Origin: Maribacter flavus
GTDB taxonomy: Bacteria > Bacteroidota > Bacteroidia > Flavobacteriales > Flavobacteriaceae
Length of the DNA stretch: 64,000 bases
Assembly (NCBI RefSeq): GCF_008386635.1
Contig: NZ_VUOE01000004.1
Coordinates: 1 to 64,000, forward strand
Reading direction: 5' to 3'
This document shows positions 45,700 through 60,581 of the stretch, one piece after another. Every line of letters starts with the position of its first letter. The first letter of the stretch is position 1. Position numbers and translations under genes: made by a program. The notes beneath the pieces were generated by a model, which was not told where the DNA came from, did not search any database, and saw only the letters and a program-made list of their open reading frames with translations.

Positions 45700-46920
45700 A
45701 TGCAAAACGAACAGGTAAAACCTAATTTTGAATTTGTAGCGTTAATGGCCTCATTAATGTCCATCGTAGCCTTAACGATTGATGCCTTGATACCTGCCAT
45801 TTCCGATATTGGCATGGCCATCCATAGCCTGGACCCGACCCAGAATCAGCTATTGATCATCATGATATTTTTGGGACTGGGCGTGGGGCAGCTCTTTTTT
45901 GGTCCCATTTCCGATAGTTTGGGCAGAAAGCCCGTGGTATACATTGGTTTCGGAGTTTTCGCCATCGCCAGTGTTATCTGTCTTTTGGCGCCAAACCTAG
46001 AAATCATGATTGTTGGTAGGATTTTACAGGGTGTCGGGCTTTCGGCACCAAGAACCATAAGTATTTCCATTATCCGGGACACCTATCGCGGCGATTATAT
46101 GGCTAAGATCATGTCCTTCGTAACCGCTTTCTTTATATTGGTGCCGGTCATCGCTCCCGCTTTTGGGAAATTTATCATGAGTTTTTCCAGTTGGGAGGGT
46201 ATTTTTTATGCGCAGCTGTTTTTTGGTCTAGTGGTATGTTTTTGGTTTTACAAACGACAGGAAGAAACCCTAAAACCCGAATATAAGGTACCTTTTAAAA
46301 CATCGGTATTTATAAACGGAACCAAGGAAATTTTCAAGTATCGGGAGACGGTTTCCTGTACGATAATCTCCGGATTGATTACAGGTTCTTTTTTGGTGTA
46401 TCTGAGCTCCGCCCAGCACGTTTTTGAGGAATTATATGGCATGGCCGATAGCTTTCCGTTAATCTTCGCCGGACTGGCCATTTCCATCGGTTTTTCAACG
46501 TTGACGAACGGTACGCTAGTGTTACGTTTTGGCATGCGAAACCTATCTTTCGTGGCCTTGTTTGCCTTCACGGCCATCGCCCTTCTCTATAGCGTTCTAT
46601 TTTGGAACAAGCCCGACCCAAGCGTGCCCGTATTGATCGGTTTTCTTTCGATATTATTTTTATGTTTGGGTTTTATCTGGGGAAATTTACGGTCCATCGC
46701 CATGGAACCTATTGGTCACATAGCTGGCATTGGGGCAGCGATTACGGGTTTTGTCTCCACGGTATTATCGATTCCGATATCCATCTACATAGGAAAATTC
46801 ATAACCGACTCCGTGTGGGCCTTGTTCGCAGGGCTGGGAGTATGTGGATTACTTTCAGTGGTCCTGTTCGTTGCGTTTAAGACAAGACCACTGTTTGCAA
46901 GTAACCGGGCATATCAATAG
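45700..46920 (+). CDS. MFS drug-efflux transporter, Bcr/CflA type
   Basis: The 406-residue protein has about 12 membrane helices and the drug-H+ antiporter (DHA1) signs: LGLGVGQLFFGPISDSLGRKPV in the loop between helices 2 and 3, and RILQGVGLSAPRTISISIIRDTY in helix 5. Bcr/CflA relatives export bicyclomycin or other drugs. The start at 45700 is kept because residues 1-16 match the usual N-terminus. The stop is three bases from the acs-tail relic at 46923-46952. Substrate unknown. Confidence 0.9.
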   Translation: MQNEQVKPNFEFVALMASLMSIVALTIDALIPAISDIGMAIHSLDPTQNQLLIIMIFLGLGVGQLFFGPISDSLGRKPVVYIGFGVFAIASVICLLAPNLEIMIVGRILQGVGLSAPRTISISIIRDTYRGDYMAKIMSFVTAFFILVPVIAPAFGKFIMSFSSWEGIFYAQLFFGLVVCFWFYKRQEETLKPEYKVPFKTSVFINGTKEIFKYRETVSCTIISGLITGSFLVYLSSAQHVFEELYGMADSFPLIFAGLAISIGFSTLTNGTLVLRFGMRNLSFVALFAFTAIALLYSVLFWNKPDPSVPVLIGFLSILFLCLGFIWGNLRSIAMEPIGHIAGIGAAITGFVSTVLSIPISIYIGKFITDSVWALFAGLGVCGLLSVVLFVAFKTRPLFASNRAYQ

Positions 46921-46922
46921 AA

Positions 46923-46952
46923 TTACAGTGCCTCGTCCATGATTTCCTGAAC
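46923..46952 (-). pseudogene. Relic of the acs 3' end (10 codons including stop)
   Basis: Read on the minus strand these bases encode Val-Gln-Glu-Ile-Met-Asp-Glu-Ala-Leu-stop, identical in protein to the last nine residues of acs, whose own end is at 47356-47385. Five of 30 bases differ, all silent or within the stop codon. Upstream of this the similarity ends. It indicates that acs once ended here, three bases from the MFS stop, and was given a new 3' end together with the DNA in between. Confidence 0.85.
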
Positions 46953-46982
46953 TCAATAAATGGTAGATTAAAATTCAATTTA

Positions 46983-47300
46983 TTATCCAGAATTGGTAAA
47001 ATAGGTTCTGTTTTTATAAAGGAAAGACATTGATTGATAGTGAACTGCTGAAACTACTACAGGGTCTCCTATTAAATTCAAGGCATCTATTTCATAATGA
47101 TGTTTTCTGAAGTATAGCCAAGTTAAAAGGTTTTCTCCTATTTCAAAATTGGCGTTGTATGGTTTAACAACTTTCCTATGGTTGACATATTCCAGTTGCT
47201 CACTTTCAAGATAAGATTTGATTTTTTCCAATTTCAATTCCTCATTTGAAAAAACATGAAATACATAAACAAGAGCCAAAATAATAATGATAAAACCCAT
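46983..47300 (-). CDS. Hypothetical protein with an N-terminal membrane helix
   Basis: The 105-residue product begins with a hydrophobic helix (residues 1-17, GFIIIILALVYVFHVF) and then a charged, mixed domain (LEYVNHRKVVKPYNANFEIGENLLTWLYFRKHHYEIDAL). I recognise no family. Its base composition is visibly more AT-rich than its neighbours, and it sits between the acs-tail relic (46923-46952) and the current acs end (47356). It may therefore have been brought in with a fragment carrying an acs 3' end. Probably real, function unknown. Confidence 0.65.
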   Translation of the reverse strand: MGFIIIILALVYVFHVFSNEELKLEKIKSYLESEQLEYVNHRKVVKPYNANFEIGENLLTWLYFRKHHYEIDALNLIGDPVVVSAVHYQSMSFLYKNRTYFTNSG

Positions 47301-47355
47301 TAAATAAGATATTCCAGCACACTCAATTCTGATAAGCTAAAGCATTAAAATTATC

Positions 47356-49263
47356 TCAGAGCGCCTCATCCATAATTTCCTGAACGATTTCAGGATTTAA
47401 CAGCGTACTCGTGTCGCCTAGATTTGAGGTGTCTCCACTGGCGATCTTGCGGAGGATCCGTCGCATGATCTTACCACTTCGGGTCTTGGGCAATCCGGAA
47501 ACGAATTGGATTTTATCCAGTTTGGCAATAGGGCCAATTTGCTCCGTAATCTGTTGGTTGATTTCCTTTCTGAGATTGTTTTTGTCCCTGCTTTCCCCGG
47601 TTTCCTTCAAAATTATATATCCATAGAGTGCATTTCCCTTTACATCGTGCGGGAAGCCAACGATGGCGGATTCTGCCACGGCCGGATGTTCGTTGATGGA
47701 ATCCTCAATAGGTGCCGTACCCAAATTGTGACCGGAAACGATGATGACATCGTCCACGCGACCCGTAATCCGGTAATAGCCAACGGCATCGCGCAATGCA
47801 CCATCGCCCGTAAAATACATGTCCTTATAGGCCGAAAAATACGTATCCCTGTATCGTTCATGGTCGCCCCATATGGTTCTTGCCATGGAAGGCCACGGGA
47901 ATTTAATGCAGAGCCTGCCATCGACTTGATTCCCTTTAATCTCCTGTCCGTTTTCGTCCATCAGGGCGGGTTGGATTCCAATAAAAGGTAACGTGGCATA
48001 AGTTGGGGTCGTTGGGGTCACGTACGGAATAGGGCTTATCATGATGCCGCCCGTTTCCGTTTGCCACCAAGTATCTACAATGGGGCTTCTTTTTTTGCCA
48101 ACATTGTTATTGTACCAATGCCAGGCCTCTTCATTGATGGGTTCGCCTACAGAGCCCAAAACCTTTAGGCTGGATAGGTCGTATTTTTCAACATAATCGA
48201 GATTTTCCTTTGCCAAGGCGCGTATTGCGGTGGGAGCCGTATAGAACTGGGTTACTTTGTGTTTTTGGACCACTTCCCAAAACCGACCAAAATCGGGGTA
48301 GGAGGGGATTCCTTCGAACATCACGGTGGTGGCACCGTTGGCCAAAGGCCCATAGACGATATAGGAGTGTCCGGTAATCCAACCGATATCGGCAGTACAC
48401 CAATACACGTCCTCTTCCCTGTATTGAAAGACATTTTTGAAGGTGTATGCGGTATAGACCATGTATCCGGCGGTGGTATGGACCATTCCTTTTGGCCTTC
48501 CTGTGGATCCCGAAGTGTATAAAATGAAAAGTGGGTCTTCGGCATTCATGATTTCGGCCACATTGTCGCCATAGGCATCGTCCAATAAAGGTTGCAACCA
48601 ATGGTCCCTTTGGGGCATCATATCGATATTGCTATGGATGCGTTTCGCCACTAAAACCGTTTCTACACCGGGGCAGCCTTCCAAGGCTTTGTCCACAATT
48701 CCCTTTAAATCGATGGTCTTGGCACCTCTATAGGAACCATCCGAAGTTATGACCAACTTACAATCGGAATCATTAATCCGTGTAGCGAGGGCATTGGAGG
48801 AAAATCCGGCAAAAACGACCGAATGTATGGCGCCAATTCTGGCGCATGCCAATACGGAAACCGCCAATTCAGGTATCATGGGCAAGTAGATACACACCCG
48901 GTCCCCTTTTTTGATGCCTTTTTCCAACAGCACATTGGCCATTTTGCATACGCGCTGGTGCAATTGCCTGTAGGTAATATGTTCCGCTTCTTCCTTGGGG
49001 TCGTTGGGCTCAAAAAGAATGGCTGTTTTATCGCCACGGGTAGGAAGGTGTCGGTCAATACAATTCTCGGTAATGTTCAACTGTGCACCATCGAACCACT
49101 TTACTTCCGGTTTTTTAAAATCCCAGCTCAGGACATTGTTCCATCGCTTGCGCCAAACAAAGTGCTCCTCTGCGATTTCTTCCCAAAAGGCCTCTGGATT
49201 ACGAACCGATTTTCTATATACTTGATAATATTCCTCTAGATGTTTAATGTGATAGTTACTCAT
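47356..49263 (-). CDS. acs: Acetate-CoA ligase
   Basis: Acs turns acetate, ATP and CoA into acetyl-CoA through acetyl-AMP. The 635-residue length is typical. Key blocks are YTSGSTGRPKGMVHTTAGYMVY (ATP-binding), DIGWITGHSYIVYGPLANGATTVMF, WWQTETGGIMISP and the C-terminal SGKIMRRILRKIA, where the Lys is normally acetylated. It follows a DUF4212-type small subunit gene and an acetate symporter gene on the same strand, so the three may form an acetate-uptake unit. Its last nine codons are duplicated at 46923-46952. Confidence 0.97.
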   Translation of the reverse strand: MSNYHIKHLEEYYQVYRKSVRNPEAFWEEIAEEHFVWRKRWNNVLSWDFKKPEVKWFDGAQLNITENCIDRHLPTRGDKTAILFEPNDPKEEAEHITYRQLHQRVCKMANVLLEKGIKKGDRVCIYLPMIPELAVSVLACARIGAIHSVVFAGFSSNALATRINDSDCKLVITSDGSYRGAKTIDLKGIVDKALEGCPGVETVLVAKRIHSNIDMMPQRDHWLQPLLDDAYGDNVAEIMNAEDPLFILYTSGSTGRPKGMVHTTAGYMVYTAYTFKNVFQYREEDVYWCTADIGWITGHSYIVYGPLANGATTVMFEGIPSYPDFGRFWEVVQKHKVTQFYTAPTAIRALAKENLDYVEKYDLSSLKVLGSVGEPINEEAWHWYNNNVGKKRSPIVDTWWQTETGGIMISPIPYVTPTTPTYATLPFIGIQPALMDENGQEIKGNQVDGRLCIKFPWPSMARTIWGDHERYRDTYFSAYKDMYFTGDGALRDAVGYYRITGRVDDVIIVSGHNLGTAPIEDSINEHPAVAESAIVGFPHDVKGNALYGYIILKETGESRDKNNLRKEINQQITEQIGPIAKLDKIQFVSGLPKTRSGKIMRRILRKIASGDTSNLGDTSTLLNPEIVQEIMDEAL

Positions 49264-49347: not shown

Positions 49348-51042
49348 TTAATGGTCTATGGCCTCTCCCGCACCGCTTGGAATCCGAATATCCTCCACAA
49401 TCTCCTGAACATTATAGGGAGGGGGCGGGGTGAGTTTCATGACACTAATGGATACCAAAAAATTGGCGAGCATGGCAATGCTTCCAAAACCTTCTGGGGA
49501 TATGCCAAACCACCAATCTTCTGAAGTTCCACCGCCAAACCAGTCGAACTTAAACTTGGTCATATAGAATAGCATCAAAAGGGTTCCCGTGACCATGCCG
49601 GCAATGGCCCCTTCCTTGTTCATCTTTTTGTAAAAAATTCCAAGCACAATGGCCGGAAAAAAAGAAGCTGCGGCTAATCCAAAGGCGAGGGCGACCACGG
49701 CGGCAACAAAACCGGGCGGGTTGATTCCAAAATAACCAGCGATTACAACGGCAACCGTTGCCGATAAACGTGCCGCCCAAAGTTCCCCTTTATCTGAAAT
49801 AGTGGGTTTGAATACTTTTTTTATGAGGTCGTGGGATACTGAAGCCGAAATCACCAATAGTAGGCCTGCCGCGGTAGATAACGCGGCCGCAAGGCCACCG
49901 GCCGCCACCAGGGCAATTACCCATGCAGGAAGGTTGGCTATTTCCGGATTTGCCAGTACCATGCTATCTGGATCTACGTAAAGTTCGTTTCGATTTTTAT
50001 CCGCTACATACTGTATTTTACCATCCTTGTTCTTATCGTCAAATTGAAAGAGCCCCGTAGTTTCCCATTTTGTAAACCATTCTGGCATGGAACCGTATTC
50101 CTTGTTGTTAACCGTATTTATCATATTTGTTCTGGCGAATACGGCCACGGCGGGTGCTGTGGTATAGAGGATAGCAATAAGAAGTAGTGCCAATCCGGCC
50201 GATTTTCTTGCGTCCTTGACCCTTTTGACGGTAAAGAATCGGACAATAACGTGGGGCAGTCCGGCGGTGCCTACCATCAACGCCAAGGTAATGGCCAACA
50301 CATCTATCATGGATTTTGAGCCGTTGGTATAGGCGTTAAAACCCAATTCCGTGGATAATCCGTCCAACTTGTCCAAAAGGTAGGTTCCCGAACCATCGGC
50401 CAATTTGGAACCCATTCCCAGTTGCGGAACGGGATTTCCGGTCATCTGGATGGAAATGAAAATAGCTGGCACCATAAAGGCGAAAATCAAAACACAGTAT
50501 TGGGCTACCTGCGTATAGGTGATTCCTTTCATTCCGCCAAGCACGGCATAAAAAAGAACGATGATCATTCCGATGATGACACCGGTGTTGATGTCGACCT
50601 CTAAAAATCGGGAAAAAACTACGCCAACCCCGCGCATTTGCCCAGCTACATACGTAAAGGAAACGATAAGGGCACAGATAACGGCTACGATTCGGGCGGT
50701 TTTGGAATAGTAACGGTCCCCTATGAAATCCGGCACGGTAAACTTTCCAAATTTCCGAAGGTATGGCGCCAATAAAAGCGCTAAAAGCACATAGCCCCCT
50801 GTCCAGCCCATAAGGTAGACGGAACCGTCATAGCCCGCAAAGGCGATGATGCCGGCCATGGAAATAAATGATGCGGCGGACATCCAATCGGCTGCAGTGG
50901 CCATACCGTTTGCCAACGGGGAAACCCCGCCCCCGGCAACGTAAAAATCCTTGGTGGAGCCGGCGCGCGACCAAATGGCAATACCGATATACAGGGCAAA
51001 AGTAATTCCGACGAGAAGGTAGGTCCAGATTTGAACGCTCAT
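49348..51042 (-). CDS. Sodium/solute symporter, acetate-permease-like (ActP type)
   Basis: The 564-residue protein is a solute:sodium symporter with about 13 membrane helices. Family blocks are AIWSRAGSTKDFYVAGGGVSPLANGMATAADWMSAASFISMAG and MGWTGGYVLLALLLAPYLRKFGKFTVPDFIGDR. Its neighbours, acs downstream and DUF4212 upstream, point to acetate or another short carboxylate. The pair DUF4212 plus symporter is known to belong together in many bacteria. The order on the minus strand is DUF4212 - symporter - acs. Confidence 0.92.
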   Translation of the reverse strand: MSVQIWTYLLVGITFALYIGIAIWSRAGSTKDFYVAGGGVSPLANGMATAADWMSAASFISMAGIIAFAGYDGSVYLMGWTGGYVLLALLLAPYLRKFGKFTVPDFIGDRYYSKTARIVAVICALIVSFTYVAGQMRGVGVVFSRFLEVDINTGVIIGMIIVLFYAVLGGMKGITYTQVAQYCVLIFAFMVPAIFISIQMTGNPVPQLGMGSKLADGSGTYLLDKLDGLSTELGFNAYTNGSKSMIDVLAITLALMVGTAGLPHVIVRFFTVKRVKDARKSAGLALLLIAILYTTAPAVAVFARTNMINTVNNKEYGSMPEWFTKWETTGLFQFDDKNKDGKIQYVADKNRNELYVDPDSMVLANPEIANLPAWVIALVAAGGLAAALSTAAGLLLVISASVSHDLIKKVFKPTISDKGELWAARLSATVAVVIAGYFGINPPGFVAAVVALAFGLAAASFFPAIVLGIFYKKMNKEGAIAGMVTGTLLMLFYMTKFKFDWFGGGTSEDWWFGISPEGFGSIAMLANFLVSISVMKLTPPPPYNVQEIVEDIRIPSGAGEAIDH

Positions 51043-51413: not shown

Positions 51414-52490
51414 TCAATTGGGTAAAAAAATGACTCCGCTCGAGGAATCCCGTTTGGCACCGGTCACCGTTTTGAGGACATTGATTTCCCTTTCCCACCT
51501 TAATACCCCCATGAACGCGAAAACCAGCGCTTCCTTGAATTCAATTATTTTTTTTTCCGGCACAACGACTTCTATATTTTTATTTAGTTTTTGCTTCAGT
51601 GTTTCAATGAGAAAGGTGTTCAGGGCACCTCCTCCGGTGATGAATAATTTTTGGGCTTGCTTTCCCGAATTCAAGGAAACTTGCTGGGCAATTTTTTCGC
51701 AAATGTGATGAACGGCGGTGTGTAAAAGGTTCTCTGTACTGTCCTTAGTGGCTTCTACAATAGGAACGACCTCCTCCAAAAACCATTCATATCCAATCGA
51801 TTTGGGGTGTGGCAATAAATAGTAATTAAGGTCATTGAGCTTTTTCAACATCTCTGGGTTGATGTTGCCCGATTTTGCCATGGTCCCGTTTTCATCATAA
51901 TTCAGTCCGATTTTTCTGGTGATGTGATTCAAGATCATATTCGCCAGGCCGATATCATAGGCAATCCTGCTACCTTTGGATTCAAAGGAGATGTTGCTGA
52001 TACCCCCAAGGTTGAGGCAAAAATCATATGCACTGAAAAGCAATCGGTCACCAATGGGAACCAGAGGCGCACCTTGTCCGCCCAAGGCGAGGTCGCTAAT
52101 TCTAAAGTCGCAGATTACTTGATGTCCGGAAGCATTGGCCAAATGCTGCCCCGATCCCAACTGGAAGGTGAGTCCAAGTTCCGGCCTATGATGCGAGGTA
52201 TGGCCGTGGCTTGCAATAAAATCGGTCTCCAGATTATTTTCAGCGATGAATTCCTTGGCCCTTGCCCCAAGCCAACTTCCGTACTCGTTGTGCAGTTGCA
52301 GCAATTTTTCGGCCGAAAGGTGAATGGCATCCTTGAGCTCGTTCTGCATTTCCGGTGTATAGGATATGCTTTTTGTTGCCTTGATCTCGAACTCCCATCG
52401 GTCCTTATGTTTCCAAAAATGGCAAAAGGCCAGGTCCAGACCGTCCAATGAGGTGCCGGACATCATACCGATGACTTTGTATTTATTCAT
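51414..52490 (-). CDS. anmK: Anhydro-N-acetylmuramic acid kinase
   Basis: AnmK phosphorylates and hydrolyses 1,6-anhydro-MurNAc released from cell-wall turnover to MurNAc-6-phosphate. The 358-residue protein has the N-terminal GMMSGTSLDGLDLA phosphate loop, the LNLGGISNIS block, YDIGLANMILNHITRK, and the ITGGGALNTFLIETL segment. It sits 7 bases after the NagZ-like gene on the minus strand, and belongs to the recycling group with AmpG, NagZ, NagB and MurQ. Its product is the substrate of MurQ, encoded at 59772-60581. Confidence 0.95.
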   Translation of the reverse strand: MNKYKVIGMMSGTSLDGLDLAFCHFWKHKDRWEFEIKATKSISYTPEMQNELKDAIHLSAEKLLQLHNEYGSWLGARAKEFIAENNLETDFIASHGHTSHHRPELGLTFQLGSGQHLANASGHQVICDFRISDLALGGQGAPLVPIGDRLLFSAYDFCLNLGGISNISFESKGSRIAYDIGLANMILNHITRKIGLNYDENGTMAKSGNINPEMLKKLNDLNYYLLPHPKSIGYEWFLEEVVPIVEATKDSTENLLHTAVHHICEKIAQQVSLNSGKQAQKLFITGGGALNTFLIETLKQKLNKNIEVVVPEKKIIEFKEALVFAFMGVLRWEREINVLKTVTGAKRDSSSGVIFLPN

Positions 52491-59013: not shown

Positions 59014-59763
59014 ATGTTAAAGGAAGAACGCCAACAAATCCTATTGAACGAAGTAGAATTGCACAATAGGATTCTATTGACGGATATAGCAGAAAGCTTG
59101 GATGTTTCCATTGATACCATCCGTAGGGACGTTAAGGAACTGGATGCCGAGAACAAATTGAAGAAGGTTCATGGTGGTGCCATTTCCTTGGGTTTTACCA
59201 ATAGTAATAGCAGGAATACAAACATCTATGCTCTGGAGGAAAAAGTAATCATCGCCCAAAAAGCCGTTACTTTGTTAAAGGACGGTGCTGTCATTTTTAT
59301 CGATGGGGGTACCACTTGTATGGAGTTGGTACGGCTCATTCCGGATAATTTGAATTTGACCTGTTTTACCATCAGTCTACCGGTAGCCATGGAACTGTCC
59401 CACAAACCAAATGTAACGGTCATTTCCATTGGGGGACAGATTTCCAAGGAGGCCCAAATATCCATCGGTGCGAACGCCATTCATAATCTTTCTGAAATTA
59501 GGGTCGACTATAGCTTTATAGGTACTGGATATGTGGATGCCGTGTATGGGCTTACGGAGTTTGATTGGGATATCGTACAAGTAAAAAAGGCGGTCATAAA
59601 GGCGGCAAAAAAAACGGTTTTATTGTCCATTTCGGAAAAGCTAAATTCGCAGCATCGGTATAAAACCTGTGATATCAATACCATTAATACCATGATAACG
59701 GAGTTGGAACCGTCCGACCGAATGTTGGAGGTCTTCCGCAACTGTGACATACGCATCTTATAA
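59014..59763 (+). CDS. DeoR/GlpR family transcriptional regulator
   Basis: The 249-residue protein has an N-terminal DeoR helix-turn-helix (LKEERQQILLNEVELHNRILLTDIAESLDVSIDTIRRDVKELDAENKLKKVHGGAI) and a C-terminal sugar-phosphate-sensing domain (GAVIFIDGGTTCMELVRLI, FIGTGYVDAVYGLTEFDWDIVQVKKAVIKAAKKTVLL). These regulators usually repress sugar genes until a phosphorylated sugar binds. It is 8 bases from murQ and divergent from nagB. Its effector is probably an amino-sugar phosphate such as MurNAc-6P, GlcNAc-6P or GlcN6P; this is inference from context. Confidence 0.9.
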   Translation: MLKEERQQILLNEVELHNRILLTDIAESLDVSIDTIRRDVKELDAENKLKKVHGGAISLGFTNSNSRNTNIYALEEKVIIAQKAVTLLKDGAVIFIDGGTTCMELVRLIPDNLNLTCFTISLPVAMELSHKPNVTVISIGGQISKEAQISIGANAIHNLSEIRVDYSFIGTGYVDAVYGLTEFDWDIVQVKKAVIKAAKKTVLLSISEKLNSQHRYKTCDINTINTMITELEPSDRMLEVFRNCDIRIL

Positions 59764-59771
59764 GAAACTTT

Positions 59772-60581
59772 ATGGAATACAAAAAAATTACGGAGTCCCC
59801 CTCCAATCATGATCATTTGGAACAATTGGATACGGTTTCCATCCTCCAAAAAATGAATGAAGAAGATAAGAAGGTTGCCGATGCGGTCGCCTTGGTAATC
59901 CCCCAGATTACTCAGTTGGTGGATGCCCTTGCCGAACGTTTCATACAAGGGGGACGTTTATTTTATATTGGTGCGGGAACCAGTGGCCGCTTGGGGATTT
60001 TGGATGCTTCCGAAATTCCTCCCACTTTTGGTATGCCCCATGAACGTGTTATTGGACTTATTGCAGGAGGTGATACGGCTATTCGAAAGGCGGTCGAGAA
60101 TGCAGAGGATGATACCCAACAAGCTTGGCTGGACCTAAATGAACATACAATAAATGAAACCGACGTTGTAGTTGGTATTGCAGCTTCGGGCACTACACCT
60201 TACGTAATCGGTGGTCTTGAATCGGCACAAAAAAATAATATCCTCACGGCTTGTATCACTAACAATCCGGGTTCGCCTATTACAAAGGTTTCCGATATTC
60301 CTATTGCTGTGAACGTGGGTCCTGAATTCGTTACGGGAAGCACGCGCATGAAAAGTGGTACCTCCCAAAAGCTGGTGCTCAATATGATCTCCACGGCACT
60401 GATGATAAAGATCGGACGTGTAAAGGGAAACAAAATGGTCAACATGCAACTCACTAATAACAAATTGGTGGATCGAGGAACGAGATATATTGTAGAGGGT
60501 CTTGGTGTAAGTTATGACGAGGCCGAGGCTTTGTTAAAAAAACACGGCTCCGTAAAAAAGGCCTTGGAGGCCGGTAAATAG
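59772..60581 (+). CDS. murQ: N-acetylmuramic acid 6-phosphate etherase
   Basis: MurQ removes lactate from MurNAc-6-phosphate, the AnmK product, to give GlcNAc-6-phosphate. The 269-residue protein has the SIS-domain sugar-phosphate site FYIGAGTSGRLGILDASEIPPTFG and GSTRMKSGTSQKL, where the Ser/Thr-rich loops bind phosphate. It lacks the extra C-terminal residues of the E. coli enzyme (about 300 residues) but the domain looks complete. It follows the DeoR regulator by 8 bases, so the regulator probably controls it. GlcNAc-6P then enters the route via the nagB fusion. Confidence 0.93.
   Translation: MEYKKITESPSNHDHLEQLDTVSILQKMNEEDKKVADAVALVIPQITQLVDALAERFIQGGRLFYIGAGTSGRLGILDASEIPPTFGMPHERVIGLIAGGDTAIRKAVENAEDDTQQAWLDLNEHTINETDVVVGIAASGTTPYVIGGLESAQKNNILTACITNNPGSPITKVSDIPIAVNVGPEFVTGSTRMKSGTSQKLVLNMISTALMIKIGRVKGNKMVNMQLTNNKLVDRGTRYIVEGLGVSYDEAEALLKKHGSVKKALEAGK

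Follow-up and report, generated by a model that had tools for sequence, protein, structure and literature searches.

The acs locus and its duplicated end

In the 64,000-nucleotide stretch of Maribacter flavus DNA analysed here, the whole of which is referred to as the window (NCBI RefSeq assembly GCF_008386635.1, contig NZ_VUOE01000004.1, positions 1 to 64,000), the acetyl-CoA synthetase gene acs (47356..49263, minus strand; 635 aa; Pfam AMP-binding, 8e-88, and ACAS_N, 6.4e-19) converges with a gene for a major facilitator superfamily (MFS) transporter (45700..46920, plus strand; Pfam MFS_1, 2.1e-37). Between the two lies an inserted unit of 433 bp (46953..47385, minus strand), absent from the nearest relatives compared and present in Maribacter litopenaei, which supplies the present end of acs together with a small gene designated p105. 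Read along the minus strand, the order is the acs end GTTCAGGAAATTATGGATGAGGCGCTC-TGA, a spacer of 55 bp running from the new acs stop to p105 (47301..47355), p105 itself (46983..47300), a 3' spacer of 30 bp (46953..46982), and then a second copy of the acs tail, GTTCAGGAAATCATGGACGAGGCACTG-TAA. The edges of the unit may slide by up to 11 bp inside the repeated core that the two tails have in common.

The two tail copies are GTTCAGGAAATTATGGATGAGGCGCTCTGA (minus strand 47385-47356) and GTTCAGGAAATCATGGACGAGGCACTGTAA (minus strand 46952-46923), with a start-to-start distance of 433 bp. Both encode nine codons and a stop, VQEIMDEAL-stop, and they are identical at 25 of 30 bases, the differences being four silent changes and one in the stop codon, exactly as the initial annotation had described from the letters alone. 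The 105-residue reading frame that it had placed between the tails was likewise recovered. Its statement that the second copy abuts the end of the MFS gene holds as to adjacency and not as to distance, there being two bases rather than three between this copy and the MFS stop codon (46918-46920).

The tail match exceeds chance. A scan of 586 frames of at least 100 codons over 359,898 bases of the window and related genomes (some stretches overlapping and some frames being counted twice) for a copy of the tail in phase, within 3 kb, followed by a stop and matching at a minimum of 18 of 27 bases and six of nine residues, returned only the acs genes of the window genome and of M. litopenaei; no other gene with a tail duplicated in this way was found in these approximately 360 kb. 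In the 20 kb 3' of acs in 26 insert-free members of the genus, no sequence matched the genome's own tail at more than 19 of 27 bases, and that best match had no stop behind it, as against 23 of 27 bases and a stop in the window. At 49348-49410, upstream of acs, the closing part of the sodium:solute symporter gene codes for NVQEIVEDI, which resembles the acs tail by chance. What looked like a tail copy on the upstream side of the M. litopenaei acs was discarded on the same grounds, being part of the symporter gene's own end (PENVQEIVEDI).

Empty sites in related genomes

The nearest genomes compared, G030 and G029, carry an empty site in which acs runs directly into the MFS end. Their acs genes end in GTTCAGGAAAT(C/T)ATGGACGAGGCACT(T/G)TAA, followed by TTCTATTG and the MFS end, the same as at the second tail copy of the window. 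This copy (46923..46952, minus strand; VQEIMDEAL-TAA) differs from the working tails of G030 and G029 by one base of 30 each, at a different base in either case, whereas the present acs end of the window differs from them by five and four bases, respectively. The copy beside the MFS gene is therefore the native tail, now a displaced relic, and the present functional acs end (47356..47385, minus strand; VQEIMDEAL-TGA) is foreign, as the initial annotation had anticipated in expecting insert-free relatives to have acs beside the MFS gene with a tail closer to the stranded copy. The insert is also absent from G006 and G013.

An acs-like match was present in 93 of 100 relatives, and the acs end together with 1.4-2.5 kb beyond it was inspected in 49 genomes (52 loci, of which three were repeats). 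Only the window genome and M. litopenaei had p105 and a clear tail copy behind acs; the best tail copy in the other 47 reached 19 of 27 bases. A TGA directly after the nine-codon tail occurred in two of the 49 genomes, both of them carriers of the insert.

A second carrier

The second carrier is Maribacter litopenaei HL-LV01 (G009; NZ_CP104205.1), which belongs to the same genus group as the window genome. Its p105 (88% protein identity; 287 of 318 bases, or 90%, identical in the gene) starts 55 bp after acs, and its acs-side tail has the TGA seen in the window. The initial annotation had suggested a search for other genomes in which the 105-residue gene follows acs, of which M. litopenaei is one, and had held that its reading would fail if the gene always followed acs with no relic; M. 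litopenaei possesses a relic of its own, ending GATAAAGCGTTTTAA, which is identical to its present acs tail at 24 of 30 bases. The inserts of the two carriers align without gaps, the 55-bp spacers being identical at 49 of 55 bases and the 30-bp spacers at 24 of 30, and in both the insert's right edge abuts GTTCAGG at one common point. The acs-side copies have GAT-GAG and TGA in common, whereas the relic-side copies differ between the carriers (GAC-GAG..TAA in the window, GAT-AAA..TAA in M. litopenaei). The M. litopenaei acs (G009:C1:1260044-1261949) aligns as two separate pieces (residues 1-193 and 194-635); several other genes there also match only in part, and sequencing error is possible.

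Horizontal origin of the insert

A tree built from 31 syntenic genes of eight genomes (26,238 nt) placed the window genome and G030 as sisters with support of 100/100, followed by G029, and a clade of the window genome with M. litopenaei was rejected on these data (approximately unbiased test, p = 0.00013). Between the two carriers, differences at fourfold degenerate sites amounted to seven of 29 in p105, compared with 1738 of 3023 (0.57; Fisher p = 0.0004) in the 31 genes, where the values for single genes ranged from 0.43 to 0.71, and with 180 of 300 in acs and the MFS gene together (p = 0.0003). The tree and the fourfold-site divergence, taken together, clearly indicate that the foreign acs end and p105 arrived horizontally and not by descent. 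The proposal of the initial annotation that a donor fragment with a foreign acs end and this gene joined acs and stranded the old tail is hence borne out by empty sites, tree, and divergence alike; added to it here are the assignment of the native and the foreign tail, the second carrier, the horizontal origin, and the location of the joints within a core of 11-17 bp.

The window and G030 differ at 1448 of 3284 fourfold sites (0.44) in total, and at 0.12 to 0.57 in single genes. Since the figure for p105 between the carriers lies below this total, the comparison, made over few sites (29), suggests that the two insert copies separated after the window lineage left that of G030. Three genes of the window, w44, w49, and w50 (51417-52490 and 59014-60578), have fourfold values of only 0.21, 0.12, and 0.26 against G030, and their closeness to it is likely to reflect recent interspecies recombination.

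Position of the joints

The joints were located by informative sites at which the window agrees either with G030 and not with M. litopenaei, or with M. litopenaei and with neither G030 nor G029. Of the 60 nt of acs that immediately precede the core, 15 differ between the window and M. litopenaei; here 12 sites were G030-like and none M. litopenaei-like; in the first 46 nt on the relic side the count was eight to zero, six of the eight lying inside the relic. These counts place the left joint in the 17 bp GTTCAGGAAAT(N)ATGGA and the right joint in its first 11 bp, the latter interval widening to 17 bp if the single base on which G030 and G029 are at odds is disregarded. The core GTTCAGGAAAT, delimited by tail comparison and by the joint interval, is present as an acs-side copy (47375..47385) and a relic-side copy (46942..46952), both on the minus strand. 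Over 300 nt of the MFS side, the window has 58 differences to G030 and 57 to M. litopenaei, and at 24 sites, all beyond the first 46 nt, it sides with M. litopenaei and with neither G030 nor G029. With the window no closer to one than to the other of the two genomes deeper in the MFS gene, the argument for the joints is confined to the near flank.

The inverted repeat TCCTGAA-ATCG-TTCAGGA, located in acs at the joint, folds as a hairpin (z -1.99; seven of 200 shuffles as good); as its codons are conserved and M. litopenaei has a changed version of it, it was not relied upon. Terminal inverted repeats were also looked for around the joints, and none stood out.

The gene p105 and the search for further carriers

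The sole open reading frame of the 433-bp insert, p105 encodes 105 residues with a hydrophobic N-terminus and belongs to no known family by profile searches, in keeping with what had been claimed for it at the outset: there was no match at E 1 in Pfam, PHROGs, or PADLOC, and the single NCBIfam match, to an MFS cation transporter, fell far below the cut-off (16.4 of 450 bits). A search of the PDB gave one match at E 0.44. The AlphaFold2 model had a mean pLDDT of 56.5, and from the sequence and this low-confidence model an N-terminal helix is predicted. Between the carriers, dN is 0.056 and dS 0.28 (NG86), so that p105 looks to be under purifying selection and is probably a real gene. It follows acs in the same orientation at a distance of 55 bp and probably relies on acs transcription; a sigma-70-type scan found no promoter-like site in the gap between the genes, a kind of scan that does not cover Bacteroidota promoters.

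Further carriers were sought at increasing distance. Three of 36 genomes of the genus had p105 at E 0.01, namely the two acs carriers and G007, in which a homologue of 41% identity with an in-frame TGA lies away from acs (L063 2525-3012). Among the 100 relatives, a match at E 1 was obtained in 30 genomes, 27 of which had weak ones only (0.0025 or worse), taken here as chance. A family sample of 397 genomes had a strong match in the window genome only; 11 other genomes had matches ranging from E 9e-5 to 0.01, and one of them, G291, when translated yielded no p105-like frame. An order sample of 395 genomes returned the window genome alone at E 0.001, and a search of genome contigs M. litopenaei alone. 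The gene was not found in IMG/VR, in plasmids, or in phages, and the 30-nt tail pattern had no match in IMG/VR. A 20-nt core pattern matched 13 viral stretches and, separately, one viral locus had a 53% match to acs.

Proposed mechanism and alternative explanations

At this acs, a unit of defined edges has been inserted precisely, the native tail has been displaced by a foreign one, and M. litopenaei has the same unit at the same site. The presence of the same 433 bp in a second lineage makes them look like a mobile unit rather than the product of a one-off joining. Since it contains no recombinase, p105 matching no integrase family, either the enzyme acted in trans or homologous recombination moved the unit. 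The reading to which we incline, though by a modest measure of confidence, is that of a non-autonomous, tail-restoring integrative element of 433 bp for which the 3' end of acs serves as attachment site and which relies on a recombinase in trans. Such an element would bring p105 and, at one edge, its own last acs codons with their TGA; recombination within the shared core of 11-17 bp would exchange the native tail for that of the element, the acs protein would stay unchanged, and the native tail would be left stranded at the far side. A circular intermediate and a tyrosine recombinase supplied in trans are what we infer for the reaction, along with expression of p105 from the acs transcript. 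Phage_integrase matches, any of which may at most be a candidate for this enzyme, were found in all six genomes searched (E 0.001), including 16 in the window genome and 12 in M. litopenaei; the comparison of recombinases covered five of the 16 against 17 loci of other genomes.

Several points weigh against this reading. Unlike typical tail-restoring elements, the unit encodes no integrase; no autonomous relative of it is known, and no larger element with an acs tail was found in the 20 kb downstream of acs in 26 members of the genus. The precision of the joints was assessed in the window genome alone, no near relative of M. litopenaei being among the genomes compared, and the fourfold contrast of p105 comprises 29 sites. 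An acs-only tree of 30 genomes (without G036) joined the carriers, albeit weakly (84/88), a pairing that the larger 31-gene set rejects.

The main rival, to which a distinctly smaller yet appreciable probability should be accorded, is that of one old insertion in some Maribacter lineage, spread thereafter by homologous recombination, for example natural transformation, through the acs and MFS flanks. Gene exchange across the region does look active, given the range of per-gene divergence from G030 and the low values of w44, w49, and w50, and the nearly equal distances over the 300 nt of the MFS side, with the 24 sites linked to M. litopenaei, are in the same vein. This explanation nevertheless needs both crossovers in the window genome to fall inside the 11-17 bp that adjoin the insert, whereas homologous tracts usually extend further than that, and it offers no account of how the tail was first duplicated. 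The insert may also be conceived as a cis-mobilisable element (CIME), that is, a larger integrative element which decayed, lost its integrase, and moved only when a related element supplied one; the anatomy of the insert fits, but we consider this improbable, as a larger element with this acs tail was found neither with the 30-nt tail pattern in IMG/VR nor in the 26 downstream regions of 20 kb, and as the two copies are equally minimal, so that the decay would have to precede their split.

Insertion as an integron-type cassette, at the GTT of acs and by an integron-like integrase of these genomes, appears very improbable in spite of some circumstantial points: both joints start with GTT (a weak agreement of three bases), the p105 homologue of G007 stands directly behind an attC-like site, and an integrase module is common to both carriers at low divergence (18 of 121 fourfold sites) in different surroundings. 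The insert has no attC-like site (a sequence-only model, R1, found no match in the window), its spacers of 55 and 30 bp are shorter than a site of 121-129 nt, their similarity was not above that of shuffles in three of four tests, and the acs tail on the insert would go unexplained. On its left edge the M. litopenaei insert has a partial attC (two of 200 shuffles as good), which was dropped because the window copy does not share it (138 of 200). Transposition with a target-site duplication of about 30 bp would account for the direct repeat that flanks the insert, but it may practically be discounted: a duplication predicts that both copies are native, while the acs-side GAT-GAG and TGA are common to the carriers, the relic-side copies differ between them, and the window's relic matches its own relatives, and a unit with p105 as its only reading frame offers neither a transposase nor terminal inverted repeats.

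Relation to known elements

Of the features of tail-restoring integration, a copy of the 3' end that restores the frame, a displaced fragment at the far end, and an empty site in relatives are present at acs. The closest likeness is to e14 in icd of Escherichia coli, where recombination takes place between 11-bp direct repeats of icdA and icdC, and of the 12 differences 10 are silent (PMC4759930); in both cases a core metabolic gene is the target, the changes are mostly silent, and a second partial copy (icdC in E. coli) remains. The genomic islands in tRNA and tmRNA genes catalogued in Islander are likewise delimited by a regenerated target and a displaced fragment (PMC4383910), yet their definition requires such a target and an integrase, and the acs insert has neither. 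The e14 element is a prophage that encodes its own integrase, in contrast to an insert of 433 bp in Maribacter with one gene and none.

With CIMEs as defined in the literature (PMC5704250), the insert shares the lack of integration and transfer genes and the retention of attL/attR-like repeats, which are identical at 25 of 30 bases in the window and 24 of 30 in M. litopenaei. No parent integrative and conjugative element or integrative and mobilisable element was found by the IMG/VR tail pattern or in the 26 regions of 20 kb. To our knowledge, CIMEs are far larger than the acs insert. An integron cassette resembles it in being a single small gene within a few hundred bases, and in the homologue by an attC-like site in G007, but the insert has no attC, sits at acs rather than in an array, and carries an acs tail. 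No report of acs as an integration site, or of this insert, was encountered in titles and the openings of abstracts, a survey in which most subscription journals were outside reach and acs-directed queries were few.

It is usually through the integrase that target-restoring integration is recognised. This 433-bp unit with its one gene, found at one position in two lineages, shows that duplicated gene tails can by themselves expose mobile DNA overlooked in annotation. A simple search rule follows the pattern at acs: a silent copy of a gene tail a few hundred bases downstream, together with a small gene. The defined attachment site further allows the missing recombinase to be sought directly. 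It is conceivable, if rather doubtful, that p105 is the first example of a class of single-gene units of less than 500 bp which pass between species by mimicking the ends of core genes, restore these silently, depend on their transcription, and borrow a recombinase from elsewhere in the cell; if this is true, such units would easily be overlooked, since they leave their target genes intact and bring no mobility gene with them.

An integron-like array in the window genome

One of the five recombinases of the window genome that were compared, a protein of 375 residues (L194 8529-9656), stands at the head of an array whose attC-like repeats measure 121-129 nt. It scores above the NCBIfam XerA_Arch/'integron integrase' cut-off (243.6 vs 220 bits) and below that of the integron integrase model TIGR02249 (212.6 vs 265 bits), and M. 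litopenaei has, in a different setting, a gene with 94.8% identity to that of this recombinase. The integrase and a neighbour of 129 residues are 91% identical over approximately 1960 bp (L194 8096-10052 vs L195 10230-12185); with the surroundings differing, the lineages seem to have exchanged mobile DNA recently. Integrons in Bacteroidota are known (PMC8618304).

Repeats of this attC-like kind were present in all seven genus genomes searched (three to 32 matches each). In G007, the p105 homologue comes directly after one of them (L063 2525-2647), which suggests that the p105 family travels there as a cassette; the acs insert, having no such repeat, is not classed as an integron cassette. The array of the window genome (G000:C2:996.5-1007 kb; L194 8529-19021) has no Rfam match and comprises eight attC-like repeats of approximately 116-129 nt on one strand with varied genes between them. 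Behind the integrase, at L194 9697-12137, a 451-bp unit occurs three times in tandem (98% similarity) and a fourth time (approximately 96%), with no clear gene.
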